Assembly (NCBI GenBank): GCA_016783455.1
Contig: JADHWN010000005.1
Location: 1-64,000, forward strand
Source: Candidatus Bathyarchaeota archaeon
GTDB lineage: Archaea > Thermoproteota > Bathyarchaeia > TCS64
Length of the DNA stretch: 64,000 nt
Direction of reading: 5' to 3'
Part shown: positions 36,958 through 50,187 of the stretch, one piece after another
Position numbering within the stretch: position 1 is the first letter of the stretch
Layout: every line of letters starts with the position of its first letter
The notes under the pieces: generated by a model
The model's input: the letters and a program-made list of their open reading frames with translations, nothing else
Told to the model about the DNA's origin: nothing
The model's database searches: none
Program-made: the position numbers and the translations under genes

Positions 36958-38499
36958 TCAGCCATTATATCCGTTGGAGAAAGTGAGTCTTGCGTCCGTG
37001 GTGACGTTCAGCCACAGTCTCTTCAGAGGGTTCTCATCCTCCACATCCATGAGGTGTGTGGTATGCATCTCGCAATCCTTGAGCCTGTACAGAGAGTCGA
37101 TGCACCTGCGGGCGTTCATGTCCGATACAGCGCTGGCAGCGAGTGCGTCGAGCACCTCCTTGACGTTCAGAGATGTGCTACTCTGTCCCATGGTCTTCTT
37201 CAACAATATCATGCTCTCTATGACAGGCCTTGAGATCACCTCGACATCGTCTGGGACCTCAGCGAGAGTCTTCGCAGCGTTCAGTAGGGCCGCTGACTCC
37301 GCATGGAGGAGAGGGGAGTTCTTCCCCTGTATCATCACCTTCGTCCCAGAGTCGTCGCAGATCTCGATGGCTGCTCCGCAGAAGATGCCCATGACCCCCT
37401 TCCCCTCGTGGCTCCTCCTCCTTGCGTCCTCTGCGGCCTCCCTGGCAGGAAGGACTACTCTGCGGTCCATGGGTGTGACCCCCACCTTTGCCATGATGGC
37501 CTCCATCCGCTCCAGCGTGTCGTTGGTCGTCTCGCCTTCCACGAACTCACGGTTGTACCTGAAGTGGCGCCTAACTATCTCCTGTCTACTGGCCTCCCTG
37601 ACTGCCCCGTCATCGACTATCCCTTCCTTAGCCATGTTGACCCCCATGTCCGTGGGGGATCTGATCTCCGCCATTGGGTCGTCGGCTGGCACCATCTTCT
37701 CGATGATCTTCTTCATAATTGCGAAGTTCTCCACGTCCCTGTTGTAGCTGATGGCGGTGACCCCGTGGGCTTCAAGATGGAAGGGATCAACGAGGTTGTA
37801 ATCCCCCATGTCAGCGGTGGCAGCCTCGTACGCGACGTTCACGGGGTGATTGAGCTCCAGGTTCCAGATGGGGAATGTCTCGAACTTCGCGAAGCCCGCC
37901 TTGACTCCCCTCTTTCTCTCCTGATACACCATTGACATCGCGAATGACATCTTCCCACTCCCGGGACCAGGGGCGGTCACTATGACTATAGGCTTATCAG
38001 TTGGCACGTACTCGGGCTTACCGTACCCCTCGTCGCTCACGACTAGAGCCATGTCAGTCAGGTAGTTGGGGATCTCGTAATGGATGAAGGTCCTGATGCC
38101 CCTGTTCTCCAGCTTCTGCTTGAACTTGAGTGCGGTTCCCTCCCCCTCATAGCGGTTTATCACGACGGCTGATACGTCCAGTCCCAGCTCACGGAGGTCT
38201 CTTATGTCTTTGAGGATCTGGTCCTCGTAGGTTAGGCCGAAGTCCCGCCTGACCTTCCTTCTCTCGATATCCTTCGCACTGATGCAGTGGACTATCTCGA
38301 TCTTGTCCCCGAGCCTGGCCAGCATCTGTACCTTCGTGTCCAGCTCGAAGCCGGGTAGAACCCTTGAGGCGTGATGGTCGTACCTGAGCTTCCCCCCGAA
38401 CTCCAAGTAGAGCTTGTCGAATTGGGAGACCCTTTCCAGAATCCGGCCTACCTGAGCGTTCAGGTACTTTTCCGTATCAAAACCGATCTTCTTTGTCAA
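36958..38499 (-). CDS. DUF1846 family protein
   Basis: This 513-residue protein matches the DUF1846 family from its start (KIGFDTEKYLNAQ). Features are KLYLEFGGKLRYDHHASRVL, VVINRYEGEGTALKFK, a P-loop-like TAPGPGSGKMSFAMSM, FPIWNLELNHPVN and the C-terminal region with VISRPVIESMILLKK. The P-loop-like part suggests nucleotide binding. Members are widespread in anaerobes, but the biochemical role is not established. Family assignment is firm; function is unknown. It is transcribed toward argF. Confidence 0.9.
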   Translation of the reverse strand: MTKKIGFDTEKYLNAQVGRILERVSQFDKLYLEFGGKLRYDHHASRVLPGFELDTKVQMLARLGDKIEIVHCISAKDIERRKVRRDFGLTYEDQILKDIRDLRELGLDVSAVVINRYEGEGTALKFKQKLENRGIRTFIHYEIPNYLTDMALVVSDEGYGKPEYVPTDKPIVIVTAPGPGSGKMSFAMSMVYQERKRGVKAGFAKFETFPIWNLELNHPVNVAYEAATADMGDYNLVDPFHLEAHGVTAISYNRDVENFAIMKKIIEKMVPADDPMAEIRSPTDMGVNMAKEGIVDDGAVREASRQEIVRRHFRYNREFVEGETTNDTLERMEAIMAKVGVTPMDRRVVLPAREAAEDARRRSHEGKGVMGIFCGAAIEICDDSGTKVMIQGKNSPLLHAESAALLNAAKTLAEVPDDVEVISRPVIESMILLKKTMGQSSTSLNVKEVLDALAASAVSDMNARRCIDSLYRLKDCEMHTTHLMDVEDENPLKRLWLNVTTDARLTFSNGYNG

Positions 38500-42107: not shown

Positions 42108-43085
42108 TTGAAGAGACAAGGGATTTTTTTCCTCTTAGTGATATTATGCCTAGTTTCCGCCACAGTGCCCGCTGAGGGACAGGAGGAGAGATGGCTCGTC
42201 TCGTACAGCGTGGTGGACATGACTACGAAGCAGCTCGTCTTCGAGCAGGACTACGAGACCGGGAGGACCATCTCGAACGCCCCAATGTTCGCTGGGGCTG
42301 AGTACAACATCACGGTGACCCTCGACATCGGCCTATCCGCTCCCTACGCCAATCTCAGTCTATGGGTGAACCTGAACCACGCCGACTCCATAGATCGGTA
42401 CTGGGAGATCCACACTGTGAGCCTCAACCTCACCGATGACTACAACCCGAACATTCCCACATTCAACTTCTGGCAGATAGAAGGGAGGTATGTCATCTCC
42501 ACGTTCGGGAGGGTCCCAAGCGACCTGACAATGGTCGACCTCGGCAACGTGGTGCTGCATTTCCCCATCAATCACGTAACATTGCAGTTGAGAGGTCCCG
42601 ACAACAGCCTTCTTGACGAGGTCAAGCTCACCATCATCGACTCGGAGATAGACAGCTACAACTTCTTCCTAGGTGAGCGGGAGGCCGACCTTCTGGAGTA
42701 CGAGGAGGTTGGCGTAGACCCTGCATTCACAGATGTCTTCGAGAACTACATCAGCCTGGCCAAGTCCCAGGCTGAGAGGGGTTTCATCCAGACGGCGAAG
42801 ACGATCCTTGAGCCACTGGAGATCGAGATACCCCCCATACAGACGGGGCCCACCCTGGCGGACCAGTACTTCCTCCCTGCAGTGGGAGGCTTGGGGCTGC
42901 TCGTCGTTCTACTCGGCGTCCTCTTCTTCAAGGCGAGGGGGAGGATCGCGTTCACTTCCATGGTGATAGAGGACCAGATCCGGGAGCTGGAGGGCCTCAC
43001 GATGAGGGCAGCCAGGACCGATAAGAACCTGGGGGAAAGGCTCCAGGAGATAAATAAGAGGTTGAAGGATATGGAGGGAATATAG
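42108..43085 (+). CDS. single-pass membrane protein of tubulin cluster
   Basis: This 325-residue protein starts at TTG after GGAGGGGG. It has a signal peptide (about 1-23), a beta-rich external domain to about residue 255 with NITVT and NLS sequons, one membrane helix (about 260-280, LPAVGGLGLLVVLLGVLFF) and a cytoplasmic coiled-coil tail (about 285-325). It ends exactly one base before the tubulin-like gene. It could link an outside domain to the cytoplasmic filament system. No family is recognised. Confidence 0.7.
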   Translation: MKRQGIFFLLVILCLVSATVPAEGQEERWLVSYSVVDMTTKQLVFEQDYETGRTISNAPMFAGAEYNITVTLDIGLSAPYANLSLWVNLNHADSIDRYWEIHTVSLNLTDDYNPNIPTFNFWQIEGRYVISTFGRVPSDLTMVDLGNVVLHFPINHVTLQLRGPDNSLLDEVKLTIIDSEIDSYNFFLGEREADLLEYEEVGVDPAFTDVFENYISLAKSQAERGFIQTAKTILEPLEIEIPPIQTGPTLADQYFLPAVGGLGLLVVLLGVLFFKARGRIAFTSMVIEDQIRELEGLTMRAARTDKNLGERLQEINKRLKDMEGI

Positions 43086-45740
43086 ATGTCTGACATAGGA
43101 TACTCAGGTGTCATCCACCTCGTGGGCTTAGGTGGGGCGGGCACAAACATTGTCGAGTCTTTCCTGAAGAACGAGAAGACCATGGAGCTCCTCGAAAGCG
43201 GGGTGACGCGGCTCTCCCTCATGGCCCTGGACATCGCCGACCCAGATATCAAGAGCCTAGAGGAGGCACACAAGAAGGTTCTCGACGCGATGAAGAGGAA
43301 CGGGGTCCCCAGGGAGCGCCTCAGCCTCATCGCGAGGTCCATCAAGTTCCCGAGCGCCGAGGCGATGTTCGACTTCGTCCATCACAAGTTCAGCGAGCAC
43401 TTGGTCAACGAGGGGATCAGGGTCAAGGAGTACTACCCCTGGCTGCCCTCCACTGTGGCGATCCCCCCCCTGGCCGGAGGTGCGGGGCGGCGTAGGTCCC
43501 TCGCCAAGGCCATCTACAACCTTAACTACTACCAGCTGGGTATCATAAAGTCCCTCATCAACATGTACAAGGACCACGCCCTCTCGTCCATCAACGCCCC
43601 CATCATCCTCCTGCTCTTCGGATTGGGCGGAGGGACGGGGAGCGGGATCGTCTTCGACTTCGCCCGCCACCTCAGGAAGTCCGTGGGCTCAGGAGTGCCG
43701 ATCCTCGCACTGTGTGTGCTGCCCTGTGCGGGTGACGACCCACCGGCGAAGGGCTACTCGGCCTTCAACGCCATCAACGAGCTCACGGCTCTCCTCAACA
43801 GGGAGACCAACGAGAAGCTGGTGGAGAAGCTCGGCGAGGAGTACAGGAACCCCTTCAACTCCGTCCTCTTCCTTCCCCTGATGCCCGCATACTCCAAGAC
43901 CGGGAACATCATGCTCGCCCGGGACGAGATCGACCAGATGATCACGGAGATGATCTACGTCCTCATGGACTTCGACATGGCAGACCTCATGAGCGGCATA
44001 GGCACCGAGGTAGGCCTCCTCGACAACAGCATCCACACGCTGAGCATGGTGAAGGTCAACTACCCCGTCGACGCCTACGTCGACGCTTTCAAGTCCAAGC
44101 TGGAGGAGATGCAGCAGCTCTCCCAGATCCGGCGGGAGAAGCTCAACTTCCTGGAGATGATCAACAAGGTCCTCGGGGTGAAGTACGCGGAGGTCTCCAC
44201 CCTCTACAAGCAGTACCTCATCAGGACTAACAGCTATGTCGAGGACGAGTTCGAGGAGAAGCTGAGGAGCCTCATCTACGGGAGTCCCCGGTTCGACGAG
44301 GACTACAACCTCTACATCAGGGGCGTCCAGGACCAGATAAAGAGCTGGATAGATGACTCCATCCAGTTCATCTCCACGATCAAGGTCGTCGCCCAGGAGG
44401 GCACCATCGAGGACTCCATAATGAAGCTCACACTCCAGACTGACGAGTCCTCGAACCAGGACAGCCTGGAGGGTCTCATGAAGAACCTGATGAGGAACCA
44501 CTCCGAGTTCTCTGAGCTCAAGACAGCCCTCTTCGAGCGCCTGCAGCAGCTAGTACCCAGCTCACAGCTACTAAGCGTGAGGCAGAAGAAGCTCGTGGAG
44601 GACTTCATGACCCTCGCCGACGTCACGGAGAAGGTCCTCGACATCCTCAGGTTCTACAACGAGACGAGGCACCTCACCGACGCCATGATTCGGCGCTACG
44701 AGATCCTGCCCGAGGACGAGTTCCCGCCCATAAACTTCCAGGACTTCAAGGCCGAGCTGACGACGCTCTACCACCTACTCCAGCTCATGGTGAAGCACGC
44801 CTCCGACGAGGTGAAGATGATCGACGAGCACCTCACCTACCTCCAAGCCATCGTCGGCAAGTTCAGAGGCCGCAAGGAGACCATGGAGAACGAGCTCTAC
44901 AGGCTCGAGGAGAGGCAGAAGCGGAAGGAGTTCGACAAGCAGAAGTACGAGAAGGAGTCGGGGGGCTTCTTCAGGTTCGGGAAGAAGAGGTACGCCAAGG
45001 AGAAGCTCAACGAGGTGGAGAGGGAGCTCCGGGTGATAAACGAGGAGATGCTGACCACCAATGAAGAGATCGGGAAGACCGACGTCGTCACAGACCTCTA
45101 CAACGACCTCCTGAAGAACCTCGAGGTCACCTCGGACTACAGGAAGAAGCTGAACATCGTCCTCGACCTCAACAAGGAGTACCAGAGGCTGTTCTCAGAG
45201 ATCATCAAGCCCAAGAGGTTCTACGAGAGGACGACGGAGTTGACCCAGGACGAGCAGGTGAAGATCATCTACAAGATCCTCGCGGAGCAGGAGGAGGCCC
45301 TGAGCAGGGAGGGGATCCTCAGGGAGATCCTGGACGTAGAGCACTTCAAGGACTACATGAGGAGCGTCGTCAGGGTCTACCGCACACCCAACATCATGGG
45401 CCTCAAGTCCAGCTTCAGGTCCGACTACCTCTGGGTAACCGTGCAGACCCCCCCAGGACTCTGGGACTCCGACCTCACCCAGGAGCTCTACACAGCCTTG
45501 GCCGGATACGTAACGGGGGACGTCTCGAAGACGATCACCGTGAGGGAGGTCAACGCCAGGGACCCATGGGTGATAAGGGTCGTCGTCGTGGGAGGCAGGA
45601 GCCGCGTGGAGGACCTGGCGACCTTCGACGAGATGGAGCGTCTCAACAGGAAGGCCTCGGACTTCGAGAAGGGGCTCTCCAAGTCGTTCCTGATAGAGCA
45701 CAAGGCCTCACTGAAGGAGATCCTGAAGAAGGACTACTAG
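43086..45740 (+). CDS. tubulin/FtsZ-superfamily GTPase with long coiled-coil tail (Tubulin_2-like)
   Basis: This 884-residue protein has an N-terminal tubulin/FtsZ GTPase domain. The first nucleotide loop is LVGLGGAGTN (residues 12-21), the tubulin signature GGGTGSG is at 181-187 and a T7 synergy loop DFDMADL at 295-301 keeps the catalytic Asp residues. Sequence is far from FtsZ, CetZ and tubulin; it fits the Tubulin_2/FtsZ-like families linked to membrane remodelling. Residues about 330-790 are mostly helical with strong coiled coil (600-690, many Lys/Glu). The last 90 residues form an alpha/beta part (YLWVTVQTPPGLW, PWVIRVVVVGG) resembling the FtsZ C-terminal subdomain. It immediately follows a membrane-protein gene, with GGAGG before its ATG. 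Confidence 0.88.
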   Translation: MSDIGYSGVIHLVGLGGAGTNIVESFLKNEKTMELLESGVTRLSLMALDIADPDIKSLEEAHKKVLDAMKRNGVPRERLSLIARSIKFPSAEAMFDFVHHKFSEHLVNEGIRVKEYYPWLPSTVAIPPLAGGAGRRRSLAKAIYNLNYYQLGIIKSLINMYKDHALSSINAPIILLLFGLGGGTGSGIVFDFARHLRKSVGSGVPILALCVLPCAGDDPPAKGYSAFNAINELTALLNRETNEKLVEKLGEEYRNPFNSVLFLPLMPAYSKTGNIMLARDEIDQMITEMIYVLMDFDMADLMSGIGTEVGLLDNSIHTLSMVKVNYPVDAYVDAFKSKLEEMQQLSQIRREKLNFLEMINKVLGVKYAEVSTLYKQYLIRTNSYVEDEFEEKLRSLIYGSPRFDEDYNLYIRGVQDQIKSWIDDSIQFISTIKVVAQEGTIEDSIMKLTLQTDESSNQDSLEGLMKNLMRNHSEFSELKTALFERLQQLVPSSQLLSVRQKKLVEDFMTLADVTEKVLDILRFYNETRHLTDAMIRRYEILPEDEFPPINFQDFKAELTTLYHLLQLMVKHASDEVKMIDEHLTYLQAIVGKFRGRKETMENELYRLEERQKRKEFDKQKYEKESGGFFRFGKKRYAKEKLNEVERELRVINEEMLTTNEEIGKTDVVTDLYNDLLKNLEVTSDYRKKLNIVLDLNKEYQRLFSEIIKPKRFYERTTELTQDEQVKIIYKILAEQEEALSREGILREILDVEHFKDYMRSVVRVYRTPNIMGLKSSFRSDYLWVTVQTPPGLWDSDLTQELYTALAGYVTGDVSKTITVREVNARDPWVIRVVVVGGRSRVEDLATFDEMERLNRKASDFEKGLSKSFLIEHKASLKEILKKDY

Positions 45741-46888
45741 AACTCCTCTATCTTCCTCTGCGTGTTATCAAGCAGGGTCTTCCTTATCTTCCCCCAGATC
45801 TCCTTCTCGTAGAGCTCGTGCTCGACGATGAGGGTGCTGAACCTGGAGATACGCTTATCCATCGTCTCGAAGAGGTGCCCCGTCTCGAAGCCCCCAACGA
45901 GGACGACGACGTCGATCCTGTCGCCGTGCTCCTCAACGTAGACTGGCTCGCAGATCAACGGGGCGTTGAGGTCAGCCACATCCTTGAGCCAGCTATTGAC
46001 CTCAAGCTCGATGTAGCCCTTGGGGAGCTGATACTGGAGCCTGAGGGGAGCCCTAACTAGGACGTAGACGAACTGGGCGGTGGAGAGGTCGAAGTCCAGG
46101 AGGGGCTGCTCAAGGGTTATGTCAAGGATGTTCCTCAGGCTCTCGTAGATTTCGAGGCTAGCACCCGCCGCCATGAGGGCGGTGAACATGTCCACCTTGA
46201 ACGAGTTGGACTGCTTCACTAGGTCCCGTATCAGGCCCCTCTTGTCAAGGAACAGCTCGACGAGGAAGTCTACAATATCCCCATTGGAGAGTCGCCCCCC
46301 TCCCCTGTTGACCCCTATGAACTGGCTCAGCCGGGTGTTGTCGAGGAGGATGATGGGTCCGGTCTCCGCGCCGAGGAGAAGCCCCAGGGATGAGAAGGCG
46401 TTGAAGAGGGCGTCCGAGCTGTAGTCCATGGACGGGAAGACGGCTAGAAATACGGCGTTCTTCTTGTCTCTCACCAGCTTCGAGTTGAGTGTGGGCAGGA
46501 CACCTGCCGTGACGCCGTCCGAGAGGGAGCCCGATATCACGATCTCGTCGTGGTAGTCGAAGATCGTCTCATCGAGAGACTTTGTAAATTCCCCGTTTCC
46601 ATCGATGTAGGAGTGGATGTCGAACCAGTAGTGGGGCTCGAAGACCGTGTCAAACATGAGGGTTGAGGCCGGATCAGGGGTTATCTCAACGGTTTTAAGG
46701 TCTAACTCCTTCCTATGGAGTATGTGGAGGAGTGTGGGCGTGTCAATACCATTGAAGCGCTTGGGGTTCCTCAACGCTTTAAAGGCGAACTGACCCACAG
46801 TTAATGCCAACTGGCTTGGGAGAACTGGGTTGATGCGGTCGATATGGGTCCTTATCTGCTTCAGGACGTCGAATCCGGACTCGGTCAT
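45737..46888 (-). CDS. degenerate tubulin/FtsZ-like protein (predicted, GTP loop lost)
   Basis: This 383-residue protein appears to follow the FtsZ fold order but with lost nucleotide motifs. LALTVGQFAFKAL stands where the first glycine loop would be. GSLSDGVTAGVLPTLNSKL replaces the tubulin signature. Next comes FLAVFPS...FNAFSSLGLLL and IILLDNTRL, as in FtsZ's strand plus NDRL loop. FKVDMFTALMAAG is placed like T7, and a C-terminal half ends in DRIDVVVLVGGF. It may be a catalytically dead partner of the GTPase it converges on, overlapping by four bases. The ATG at 46888 is chosen because the upstream extension overlaps the divergent gene. Fold assignment is inference. Confidence 0.6.
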   Translation of the reverse strand: MTESGFDVLKQIRTHIDRINPVLPSQLALTVGQFAFKALRNPKRFNGIDTPTLLHILHRKELDLKTVEITPDPASTLMFDTVFEPHYWFDIHSYIDGNGEFTKSLDETIFDYHDEIVISGSLSDGVTAGVLPTLNSKLVRDKKNAVFLAVFPSMDYSSDALFNAFSSLGLLLGAETGPIILLDNTRLSQFIGVNRGGGRLSNGDIVDFLVELFLDKRGLIRDLVKQSNSFKVDMFTALMAAGASLEIYESLRNILDITLEQPLLDFDLSTAQFVYVLVRAPLRLQYQLPKGYIELEVNSWLKDVADLNAPLICEPVYVEEHGDRIDVVVLVGGFETGHLFETMDKRISRFSTLIVEHELYEKEIWGKIRKTLLDNTQRKIEEF

Positions 46889-46939
46889 CTGGGGATAAGA
46901 AAAGGATTGGGAACTTAATATAAAAGGTGCGTTTCGGTC
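46889..46939. promoter_or_regulatory. 51-base divergent promoter of tubulin cluster
   Basis: The two divergent genes are only 51 bases apart, sharing an AT-rich core at about 46913-46926 (CTTAATATAAAAGG) that can read as a TATA element in both directions. Transcripts would have almost no leader. Close sharing suggests matched expression of the degenerate tubulin and the polytopic membrane protein. Confidence 0.5.
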
Positions 46940-49270
46940 ATGAGCATCACTTTCCTGAACGATGAGAGCTTCACGGACCAGACCGGTCGCGCGATAACCA
47001 TCCTCGTGACAGCTATTAGCATGGCCCTCTCCTTCACCCTGATACCCCTCCTCCCGAAGCCGTTGCCTGTTATCGTCGCCCTCCTCGTCGCCTACCTTGT
47101 CTATAGGGACCCGCCGATGGGGGCCTTCGTGGGTAGCATGATCATAGCCTTTGGGGTGTTCTACCACCTCTCAAGGATCGGGTTCTTCCTCCTCTTCCCC
47201 CCGCCGTGGGTCCGCATGCTCGTCATGGTGGTGCTCCTCCTCCCCTTCTTTCTCGTCTCCACGCAGCTGTTCACCAACATCGCCATCATCTCAATGGACA
47301 TAGGCATACTCGCCGTCTCCCTCCTATTCTTCAAGTCGACGTACTACCTCGCAATTCCCATCATCCTCGTCTTCGCCACGATCTACCGGAAGCGGGGTCT
47401 CATCGTCACCTTCTCCTACTACCTCTTCATCTCGCTCCCCCTCCAGGTCATGCAGTACCTGAAGACGTTTCAGGTGGGGATGGTACCGCCCCTCTACACC
47501 CCTCTCGACGTCATATTTACGGACATCCAGCAGGCTATGGAGCAGGTCAGCCTCGAGGAGATCCAGAAGATCCTTGGTGTGATAATGAGGCAGATACTGA
47601 TGCTCAACGGGAACGGGGGGGATCTCCAGCCCGCCCTCAGTAGCTACGTCAACTCGTTCCCGGGGATGATCTTCTTCATACTTATCATCTCGGCTCTCAT
47701 CTCCGTAGCTGCCCTTTTAACGCTGAAGCTCCCGGAGCCCCTGAAGAGGAGCAGGCTCCCGAGGAGGTATATGGACACGCTTATCTACGTCATACCAGTG
47801 GGTGTCGCCATCTTCACGAACATGGTCTTCTTCGTCCTCCTTGACATCCTCCAGGGACCCCTGGCGTTCCAGGCGAGCGTGGATCCTACGATACTCATGC
47901 TCTCAACGAGCTTCACCCTCTTCCTCTCGGCCCCCGTCTCCCTGTCAAAGTACATCGTCGACCTGAGGGATGTATTGGCAGATCGGAAGGCTGAGCTGAA
48001 GAACAGGGCCGAGTCCCTCCTCGAGGAGGTGGACCACTACATATGGCTGATGAACCTGCTGGGAGACCCCATTCCCCAGGGCTTCATCTCACTCCACACC
48101 CGGATGCTCATAGTCGCCGACGAGCTGAAGGACACGATCGCCCTCTCCTCCGATGGCCCCTCGACCCTCAAGGAGGTGGACCCCCTCATGAGAAGGGTGT
48201 TCACCCATCTCCAGGATGAGGTCTCCAACTTCAGGTGGCAGCTCGACATCGCCCTTGACGACTATTACATCAAGATCAAGTTCGAGTTCCTCGAGTCTGC
48301 CAGGGAGATACGTGAGCTAGGACTGGAGGTGGAGCTACCCGAGATACGTGATCCTCCCAAGGACGCACCTCTGGAGGAGAAGGTCGAGAGCATACTGTGG
48401 GTGATGGACGCCGGGGGCAATCTGGTGGACAAGCTCATCTCCACATCGGACAAGATCTACGAGATCATCTGCTCCCTCTTTGAGCCCTCCCTCCCGGGGG
48501 TGAGCCCCATCATCCAGATCTCCAAGGAGAAGCAGGAGAGCGACGAGCCCTGGGTCATCATAGAGGCCATCCTCGCCTCCCTCAGGAACTGGGAGAAGCA
48601 GTACTCCGCTGAGATAATGCGGTCCACGAAGCCCATACAGGACTCCGTGGAAGCCGTCATCGAGCTCAGGAAGAGGGAGGGAGCCCTCCTGCCCATCCTC
48701 GGCGACAGGTTCACCCTCATCAGCGACCTGGCTGGGAAGCTCGAGGTCAGGGATTTCGGTAGAGAGGACGACCTGAAGGTGCTCAGGGTCATCCTCATCA
48801 GGGACACCATCTTCTCCACCGTGGACGTCGTGGCCAGGGTTGTGGGGGTTCTCTACGATCACCTGAGGGAGCTGGAGGCCGACATCGACTCCCTGATGCC
48901 CATGGAGGACTATGAGTGGAACAAGAACCTCACCCTCCTCGACAGGATGAACACGAGCCTCGGGGTCATAAACCACTACGAGAGCCACGAGATCAACGAG
49001 ATCATCAGCCACCTCTACAGGGTGCTCAGCTACATAGACGAGGCTGTGGACACGGTGCAGTACTACAACGAGAGGAAGGAGCTCCTGCTCAACTACCGCA
49101 TTCTGGAGAAGAAGATTGGGCGCATACTCGCGGATAACGATCAGGTGAGCCTGGATGACCTCGGCGTCTCGGAGAAGTTCGGCAGGGAGTACCTGAAGCT
49201 CTACCTCCGAGGGCATTACACTGAGATCCCCCTGGAAGAGGTCGGGAGCTCCCTGAGGAGGGTTAGCTAG
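46940..49270 (+). CDS. polytopic membrane protein with long cytoplasmic helical tail
   Basis: This 776-residue protein has about 10 membrane helices within residues 15-330, e.g. LLVAYLVYRDPPMGAFVGSM and VLLLPFFLVSTQLF. A tail of about 440 residues, largely helical and charged (about 330-776), follows. I recognise no family. The tail length and coiled-coil character resemble those of the tubulin-like protein, and the gene overlaps the PH-like gene by one base. It could be the membrane receptor for the filament. Confidence 0.75.
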   Translation: MSITFLNDESFTDQTGRAITILVTAISMALSFTLIPLLPKPLPVIVALLVAYLVYRDPPMGAFVGSMIIAFGVFYHLSRIGFFLLFPPPWVRMLVMVVLLLPFFLVSTQLFTNIAIISMDIGILAVSLLFFKSTYYLAIPIILVFATIYRKRGLIVTFSYYLFISLPLQVMQYLKTFQVGMVPPLYTPLDVIFTDIQQAMEQVSLEEIQKILGVIMRQILMLNGNGGDLQPALSSYVNSFPGMIFFILIISALISVAALLTLKLPEPLKRSRLPRRYMDTLIYVIPVGVAIFTNMVFFVLLDILQGPLAFQASVDPTILMLSTSFTLFLSAPVSLSKYIVDLRDVLADRKAELKNRAESLLEEVDHYIWLMNLLGDPIPQGFISLHTRMLIVADELKDTIALSSDGPSTLKEVDPLMRRVFTHLQDEVSNFRWQLDIALDDYYIKIKFEFLESAREIRELGLEVELPEIRDPPKDAPLEEKVESILWVMDAGGNLVDKLISTSDKIYEIICSLFEPSLPGVSPIIQISKEKQESDEPWVIIEAILASLRNWEKQYSAEIMRSTKPIQDSVEAVIELRKREGALLPILGDRFTLISDLAGKLEVRDFGREDDLKVLRVILIRDTIFSTVDVVARVVGVLYDHLRELEADIDSLMPMEDYEWNKNLTLLDRMNTSLGVINHYESHEINEIISHLYRVLSYIDEAVDTVQYYNERKELLLNYRILEKKIGRILADNDQVSLDDLGVSEKFGREYLKLYLRGHYTEIPLEEVGSSLRRVS

Positions 49271-50187
49271 TGGACAAGATCAAGGGTAAGCTGAGGAGCG
49301 GTCAACGGGCTTACATTGAGCTCAAGGACGGCTCCGTCAACGTCTCCATGGAGCGGGGGCTCATCATGAAGAGCCTCGTGGTCCACAGGGAGCTCCCGCT
49401 ATCCGAGATCACACACGTGACGCTTGAGAAGGACAGCTCCCCCCGGAGTAGGAATCATCACCTGACCCTTGTGTACGGTGAGGGTGAGGAGGAGGTCTTC
49501 TCCTCGACCGAGGACGAGCCTCTTGAAGCCCTCCGGTCCCAGATAGCGGCTGACCTGGAGCGGCGGAGGGCTGAGCGTGAGAGGGAGGAGGCCGAGAGGA
49601 GGCGGGTCTGGGAGGCACATGTCCACCAGATATCCCTCATGCTGGACCTCATGGAGGAGGTCTTCCTCATGCTAGAGGGGCTGCAGGGATGGGTCGAGTG
49701 GACGGGTATCGGGGGCCACCTTGTACAGCTTGAGCACGTCATCGGGGAGATGAGGGAGATAGAGGTCCTGGCGCCTCTGAAGTACGACCTCCAGGGCCTC
49801 AATACAGCCGTGAGGAGGAGGCTCCCCGGGGCGATCAGGGAGGAGTGCTTCGCGGTCCTCACAGTCCTCAGGCAGGACATAGAGCGGCTCTCCAAGTCCG
49901 ATGAGTCCTCCATGGGCTTCGACCTAAGGCTCTACGAGCGGTTCGTGGGCGCCTACTTCCTCCTCTGGGATATCAACCTCTCGGAGTTCCTGGGAGAGCC
50001 AGCTGAGAGGGCGGAGGTCATCGAGTTGAACACCTTCCTTGAGAGGCTGAGCAGCCTAGAGGTCAACGGGGAGGCAGAGGTGCCTCGATTCCCCGATCTA
50101 ACCGAGATCGATGTCCTCGGCCCTAAGATCAAAGATATCCGGGGTGCAATCCAGTTCCATCTACACGCCCTCTTAGACGGAATATGA
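49270..50187 (+). CDS. PH-like N-terminal domain, coiled-coil protein
   Basis: This 305-residue protein starts at a GTG overlapping the previous stop. Residues about 1-90 form a beta-rich module (QRAYIELKDGSVNVSMERG, LPLSEITHVTLEKD, HLTLVYGEGEEEVF) typical of bacterial/archaeal PH-like domains that bind lipid or protein. A charged helix (about 92-118, RRRAEREREEAERRR) and a helical C-terminal domain follow. No signal peptide or membrane helix is present. It is the last gene of the tubulin cluster and a likely peripheral adaptor at the membrane; that role is inference. Confidence 0.7.
   Translation: MDKIKGKLRSGQRAYIELKDGSVNVSMERGLIMKSLVVHRELPLSEITHVTLEKDSSPRSRNHHLTLVYGEGEEEVFSSTEDEPLEALRSQIAADLERRRAEREREEAERRRVWEAHVHQISLMLDLMEEVFLMLEGLQGWVEWTGIGGHLVQLEHVIGEMREIEVLAPLKYDLQGLNTAVRRRLPGAIREECFAVLTVLRQDIERLSKSDESSMGFDLRLYERFVGAYFLLWDINLSEFLGEPAERAEVIELNTFLERLSSLEVNGEAEVPRFPDLTEIDVLGPKIKDIRGAIQFHLHALLDGI

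Follow-up and report, generated by a model that had tools for sequence, protein, structure and literature searches.

What does a tubulin-like protein without a recognisable nucleotide site do beside a tubulin relative whose site is intact? The question is raised by a stretch of 64,000 nucleotides (hereafter the window) from a Candidatus Bathyarchaeota archaeon (GenBank assembly GCA_016783455.1, contig JADHWN010000005.1, positions 1 to 64,000), in which a minus-strand gene for a protein of 383 amino acids (aa; 45737-46888, ATG at 46888, stop at 45737), here called the pseudo-tubulin, converges on the plus-strand gene of an 884-aa protein, FtsZl1 (43086-45740). A preliminary description of the window, made from its letters, had proposed that the former was a possible catalytically dead partner of the latter, and the tail-to-tail overlap of 4 base pairs (bp) that it reported is indeed there, at 45737-45740, containing both stop codons. 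Our analyses leave little doubt that the pseudo-tubulin is a tubulin-fold pseudo-GTPase, and make it likely, with strong though lesser assurance, that it is a functional partner of FtsZl1.

Fold and nucleotide face of the pseudo-tubulin

The AlphaFold2 model of the pseudo-tubulin, for which an alignment of 11 orthologues (A1) was the input, has the full two-domain tubulin fold, with a mean predicted local distance difference test score (pLDDT) of 81.2 and a predicted template-modelling score (pTM) of 0.83. The order of FtsZ-like landmarks that had been read from the letters is reproduced in it: T1 lies between S1 and H1, T4 between S4 and H4, T5 between S5 and H5, and T6 between S6 and H6, after which come H7, H8, S7, H9, S8, H10, S9, S10 and H11, in that order. 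The Foldseek comparison for which the preliminary description had called recovered the tubulin/FtsZ fold as well, since the model found CetZ first in the PDB (3zid, E = 8.9e-16), then CetZ1, TubZ and tubulins, and, in all, 981 matches fell below 1e-3. VIA-align superposed 341 of its residues on OdinTubulin (Z = 29.3, 3.4 Å), the chains listed being tubulins.

At the level of sequence, similarity to the tubulin superfamily is weak and is seen by profile: the best five matches of the A1 profile among all PDB sequences were AtubB2 (E = 7e-4), CetZ (4e-3), 4b45 (CetZ2) and two BtubB entries. The sole Pfam match, to FtsZ_C over residues 252-334, was below threshold (E = 0.18), and no NCBIfam or PADLOC model matched the protein. 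Matches by hhalign to FtsZ (E = 1.4e-3) and FtsZl1 (8e-4) were weak and alike, and do not separate a placement among FtsZ, CetZ, tubulin and FtsZl1; nor does the pseudo-tubulin qualify as an FtsZl1 itself, having no PF13809 match in the Pfam search and no long coiled-coil insert in the model. Its best matches in a viral library were phage tubulins, which fits the fold and nothing more specific, and a Tubulin_C search of 398 Thermoproteota genomes gave no match anywhere, its controls being silent too, so that it carries no information.

The nucleotide face is where the protein departs from its superfamily. The glycine loop and the signature quoted in the preliminary description were both found as given: VGQFAFKAL (residues 31-39, 46772-46798, minus strand like the motifs that follow) replaces the GGxGxN-type T1 loop of tubulin and FtsZ, and GSLSDGVTAG (residues 120-129, 46502-46531) replaces GGGTG(S/T)G at T4. 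Both positions were readable in 22 orthologues, and T6 and T7/H8 in 23. At T1, the nucleotide-contacting glycine/cysteine loop is absent from the orthologues, residue 34 being Tyr or Phe in all 22, in forms such as GQF/Y and GEYP. At T4, where hmmsearch and hhalign set SDGVTAG against GDGTGAG of AtubB2, SGGTGSS of CetZ (3zid) and GGGTGTG of the organism's own FtsZ, GGGTG(S/T)G has given way in 22/22 to the pattern (S/W/G)-(D/E)-G-(not T)-x-x-(G/A), i.e., the first position is Trp, Ser or Gly, the second Gly has become Asp or Glu, and the Thr is missing (V in 13, otherwise S, A, F, I or M). The base-binding Asn position of T6 (LLDNTRL, residues 181-187, 46328-46348) is altered to Arg in 16 of the 23, Gln in 4, and His and Lys in 1 each, Asn being present in 1. 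In tubulin and FtsZ, the residues substituted at T1, T4 and T6 hold guanine and phosphates. The T5 region (PSMDYSSD, residues 152-159, 46412-46435) has the tubulin-like form PSxxxSD; no variation occurs at P152, S153, D159 or N163, and, within the protein, the T5 window ranks in the top 2 percent by conservation, the T4 and T3 windows also being above average.

The 22 readable orthologues all share the motif loss, which excludes a sequencing error confined to a single metagenome-assembled genome (MAG); judged from the alignments, the pocket changes are conserved replacements rather than drift. For pairs with dS < 2, which are the informative ones, the ratio of nonsynonymous to synonymous substitution rates (dN/dS) was 0.205, 0.215 and 0.151, and A1 has 23 invariant columns. 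Taken with the conserved replacements, dN/dS values of 0.15-0.2 indicate a maintained protein with a rebuilt pocket, one in which nucleotide binding would be totally lost. The term catalytically dead is well supported on the nucleotide-binding face; the T7/H8 face keeps an invariant acidic position (D/E222) and may still act on the partner.

The T7/H8 region (KRGLIRDLVK, residues 216-225, 46214-46243) is a short loop without NxDxxD, and, by a count on the sequences, FtsZ and tubulin have 5-7 residues more in the S6-to-H8 stretch. K216 is invariant (23/23), and position 222, in H8, is Asp or Glu in all 23. Residue 225 is Lys or Arg in 10/10 sequences of the window's family and Glu in 13/13 of a sister family. 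The basic residue of the window's family resembles that of AtubA, whose Lys in the T7 region is the proposed reason why one GTPase interface is silent in the AtubAB dimer of Asgard archaea (PMC13394414).

FtsZl1 and its linkage to the pseudo-tubulin

The neighbouring gene had been described as an active-looking tubulin, and active-looking it is, with T1, T4 and T7 intact in both sequence and model; as for its kind, it is a tubulin relative of the FtsZl1 type and not a canonical FtsZ or tubulin, matching Tubulin_2 (PF13809) with 52.1 bits against a cut-off of 27 (E = 8e-14). On the plus strand, the T1 loop GLGGAGTN is at residues 14-21 (43125-43148), the T4 signature GLGGGTGSG at residues 179-187 (43620-43646), and the T7 acids DFDMAD at residues 295-300 (43968-43985), of which D297 and D300 do not vary among 18 sequences; the hhalign alignment to FtsZ extends into this region, DFDMADL standing opposite NLDFADF. 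FtsZl1 has been published as having neither a T6-H7 match nor an FtsZ/tubulin-like C-terminal domain (PMC2875224; PMC9871819), whereas our model (pLDDT 81.8, pTM 0.72) predicts both, with S1-S7 within the first 325 residues and S8/H10/S9/S10 at 782-839. VIA-align superposed it on CetZ1 over 322 residues spanning 8-859 (Z = 25.9). In the model, a helical/coiled-coil insert of ~440 aa (residues 328-771, 44067-45398) appears to lie between S7 and S8 and so to split the tubulin C-terminal domain, the second half of which (S8, H10, S9, S10) occupies residues 780-859 (45423-45662), an architecture apparently unreported in the open literature. A sequence similarity of this domain to that of the pseudo-tubulin seemed good by eye but scored no better than shuffled controls, and it is the structure model that argues for a C-terminal domain in FtsZl1.

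Co-occurrence of the two genes is close to perfect, 35 genomes across two Bathyarchaeia families carrying both. The window's family (27 genomes) has both in 10, neither in 15 and a single gene in 1 + 1; the sister family (90 genomes) has both in 25, neither in 63 and, again, a single gene in 1 + 1. Fisher tests, computed with 15 and 63 in the 'neither' cells, gave 1e-5 and 6e-20, respectively, values in which independence is overstated, as the genomes are related. Single-gene cases G458, G446 and G022 fall at contig ends, and in G010 the cassette contains a 346-aa gene for a diverged partner, the product of which is 24 percent identical to the protein of locus L070 (E = 5e-26); together, these two proteins matched the pseudo-tubulin profile with hhalign E values of 4e-7 to 8e-9. 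Every complete locus in both Bathyarchaeia families has the same gene order, i.e., an anchored protein, FtsZl1, the convergent pseudo-tubulin and a polytopic membrane protein. In small local searches, diverged relatives of the pseudo-tubulin were detected in the same cassette in other Thermoproteota families (L062, 1.5e-8; L063, 1.8e-7; L070, 2e-6; L068, 6e-4), the cassette protein of L067 is linked to that of L063 by 35 percent identity, and the polytopic membrane protein is recognisable in those cassettes too. Since the window genome also holds two ordinary FtsZ genes, it is improbable that division depends chiefly on this pair.

Several related loci deserve mention in their own right. In MAG G447 (L103, G447:C10:1-7572), the anchored protein is intact, but the pseudo-tubulin lies in three pieces, and the fragmentation extends to FtsZl1 and the membrane protein; frameshift errors in assembly would produce this pattern, as would decay of the entire cassette. 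An N-terminal extension, with membrane segments in some cases, marks a further archaeal subtype of FtsZl1 (L064, L065, L066 and L071), which occurs in other neighbourhoods and for which no partner was found. At L072:9407-13636, a stand-alone FtsZl1 of 961 aa, with neither a partner nor membrane genes, is followed by an AAA ATPase that we take to be Orc1/Cdc6-like. One Bathyarchaeia MAG has four tandem FtsZ-family genes (G047:C3:10249-13963; L023 / L081 / L091 / L097 / L100), one of which has GGGVGSG for GGGTGSG.

Possible roles of the pseudo-tubulin

On balance, we favour the view that the pseudo-tubulin is a pseudo-GTPase and dedicated FtsZl1 partner that serves as the inactive subunit of a membrane-held assembly. 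The predicted fold, motif loss, selection and genetic linkage are as described above; contact, stoichiometry, polarity and membrane attachment are put here conditionally. FtsZl1 would bind and hydrolyse GTP and form protofilaments, and the pseudo-tubulin would join it longitudinally, placing its conserved T7/H8 side (K216, D/E222) on the GTP face of FtsZl1. The nucleotide face of the pseudo-tubulin, filled by conserved side chains, would provide a nucleotide-independent contact and so make the protein a built-in inactive subunit, either alternating with FtsZl1 or acting at a filament end or as a nucleator, and the 776-aa polytopic and 325-aa anchored proteins would keep the assembly at the membrane. 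That the partnership takes the form of a direct longitudinal subunit or end-piece, and not of some other kind, we put at even chances. The most far-reaching version, a membrane-anchored heteropolymer in which one subunit binds no nucleotide and every second longitudinal interface is nucleotide-free, with diverged forms across Thermoproteota, is offered tentatively and may well be wrong; if true, it would be an independent route to an asymmetric tubulin filament beside alpha/beta, AtubA/B and BtubA/B.

The main rival is a cap or sequestering regulator, a role that is doubtful but deserves serious attention, in which the pseudo-tubulin would bind one FtsZl1 end or free FtsZl1 and limit or position polymerisation, like the MinC/SulA-type FtsZ inhibitors, and never be a subunit. 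With no nucleotide site of its own, the protein could not go through a normal longitudinal cycle, its convergent transcription, separate from that of FtsZl1, would allow tuning of dose, and the catalytic-acid position may be Lys/Arg in the window's family, all of which would suit such a regulator. However, invariant or near-invariant residues occur both on the old nucleotide face (T5, H86, W88, G125) and on the opposite side (K216, D/E222), and conservation on both faces fits a two-contact subunit better than a one-sided cap. Less likely than the cap is a membrane adaptor, in which the tubulin fold would be a mere scaffold that links the polytopic membrane protein (46940-49270) with filaments of FtsZl1; the genes of the adaptor and the membrane protein adjoin (gap of 22-87 bp in the Bathyarchaeia loci examined), have a putative divergent promoter region in common and are kept together in every complete locus, but FtsZl1 co-occurs equally.

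A slightly poorer prospect still is that the pocket (Tyr/Phe34, His86, Trp88, Asp/Glu124, often Arg184) was rebuilt for a ligand other than GTP, or for another mode of GTP binding. The pocket columns are conserved and not drifting, as the ranks of T5, T4 and T3 attest, but a protein contact explains that conservation equally, and, with T1 filled and an acidic residue in T4, a phosphate chain would be repelled or find its place blocked. There remains the non-partner, a decaying FtsZ-like paralogue stuck beside FtsZl1 by chance, to which we give next to no credence. It would account for the loss of all canonical nucleotide motifs and for the three fragments in G447, but FtsZl1 and the membrane protein are broken there too, so that assembly errors or whole-locus decay account for the fragments, and a decaying pseudogene was rejected on the dN/dS values and the invariant columns; two families retain the protein, and other families have diverged forms of it.

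Against an inactive subunit of a membrane-held assembly stand several points. The best of the five AlphaFold2 models of the pseudo-tubulin was far above the others (pLDDT 81, 67, 65, 57 and 55) and had only 11 sequences behind it; given the four weaker models (55-67), more weight was placed on the external structural match. The residue correspondence of T7/H8 to FtsZ and tubulin was drawn from sequence across the shortened S6-to-H8 stretch, and an unusual mode of nucleotide binding could in principle persist. Some FtsZl1 proteins (the subtype with the N-terminal extension and that of L072) are without a detectable partner, and the co-occurrence of neighbouring genes in related genomes is non-independent evidence that does not amount to contact.

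Known systems and the gene cassette

For a divergent member of the superfamily that acts on an active FtsZ or tubulin system, there are precedents in ARC3, of chloroplast division, and Misato/DML1, the nucleotide motifs of which are degenerate, although these are eukaryotic, have other domain additions and show no gene pairing with FtsZl1. According to the available parts of the respective papers, Misato acts on the tubulin system (PMC4510148) and ARC3 regulates FtsZ-ring assembly (PMC13335998). AtubA/AtubB (PMC13394414) and alpha/beta-tubulin are likewise pairs of tubulin-fold proteins encoded by adjacent genes, in which one GTPase interface is presumed disabled; both of their subunits have a GTP site, whereas here one has lost the binding motifs and any heterodimer is hypothetical. 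CetZ, also archaeal, is the closest solved fold for both the pseudo-tubulin (Foldseek) and FtsZl1 (VIA-align), but it keeps its GTP-binding motifs, its sequence similarity to the pseudo-tubulin is marginal (E = 4e-3), and its roles concern cell shape and motility, not division (PMC9723716). The FtsZl1/Tubulin_2 systems of Makarova and Koonin (2010), of which our FtsZl1 is a member, have similar archaeal, membrane-associated neighbourhoods and a predicted role in membrane remodelling; the partners in the available part of that paper (PMC2875224) are vWA, GTPase, kinase and OmpA proteins, with no second tubulin-fold protein among them. Firmicutes versions of the GAP1-N2 conflict systems (Kaur et al. 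2020, PMC7159879) encode two coiled-coil tubulin-domain proteins, together with vWA and GTPase genes that are absent from this cassette, which also differs in having no PADLOC match.

In the open literature on FtsZl1, Tubulin_2 and inactive or degenerate prokaryotic tubulins, subscription papers and supplements being outside the scope, a pseudo-tubulin partner of FtsZl1 is not described and is apparently new, although it may be the same gene as an unnamed 'associated family' of the 2010 FtsZl1 paper. FtsZl1 has been an orphan tubulin since that year, neither its filament mode nor a tubulin partner being known. A tubulin-fold protein that constantly accompanies it and lacks a nucleotide site, taken with a predicted complete, if split, FtsZl1 C-terminal domain, gives a concrete two-subunit system for expression and cryo-electron microscopy. 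The two proteins probably operate at the membrane as a pair, one active and the other inactive, which bears on why tubulins so often end as such pairs.

The remaining genes of the cassette are all on the plus strand. Upstream of FtsZl1 is the conserved 325-aa secreted or membrane-anchored protein (42108-43085), with a signal-like N-terminal segment, a C-terminal transmembrane segment and a short tail. Beyond the pseudo-tubulin is the conserved 776-aa polytopic membrane protein (46940-49270), which has a long charged C-terminal region past its last hydrophobic segment (~residue 300), and then a soluble 305-aa protein (49270-50187), next in most loci of the window's family and occasional elsewhere. 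PADLOC had no match for any of the five cassette proteins, on which ground a defence-system reading of the cassette was set aside. A longer GTG start for the pseudo-tubulin, at 47167, was also rejected, as the gene would then extend over the beginning of the divergent gene for the membrane protein, and the orthologues start near the ATG. The 51 bp separating these two genes (46889-46939) form a putative divergent promoter region with a TATA-box-like TTTATATTAA; this lone element could drive both genes, with near-leaderless transcripts. Elsewhere in the window, at 36958-38499, a DUF1846 two-domain protein adjoins a carbamoyltransferase, an arrangement that is, to our knowledge, unusual in archaea.

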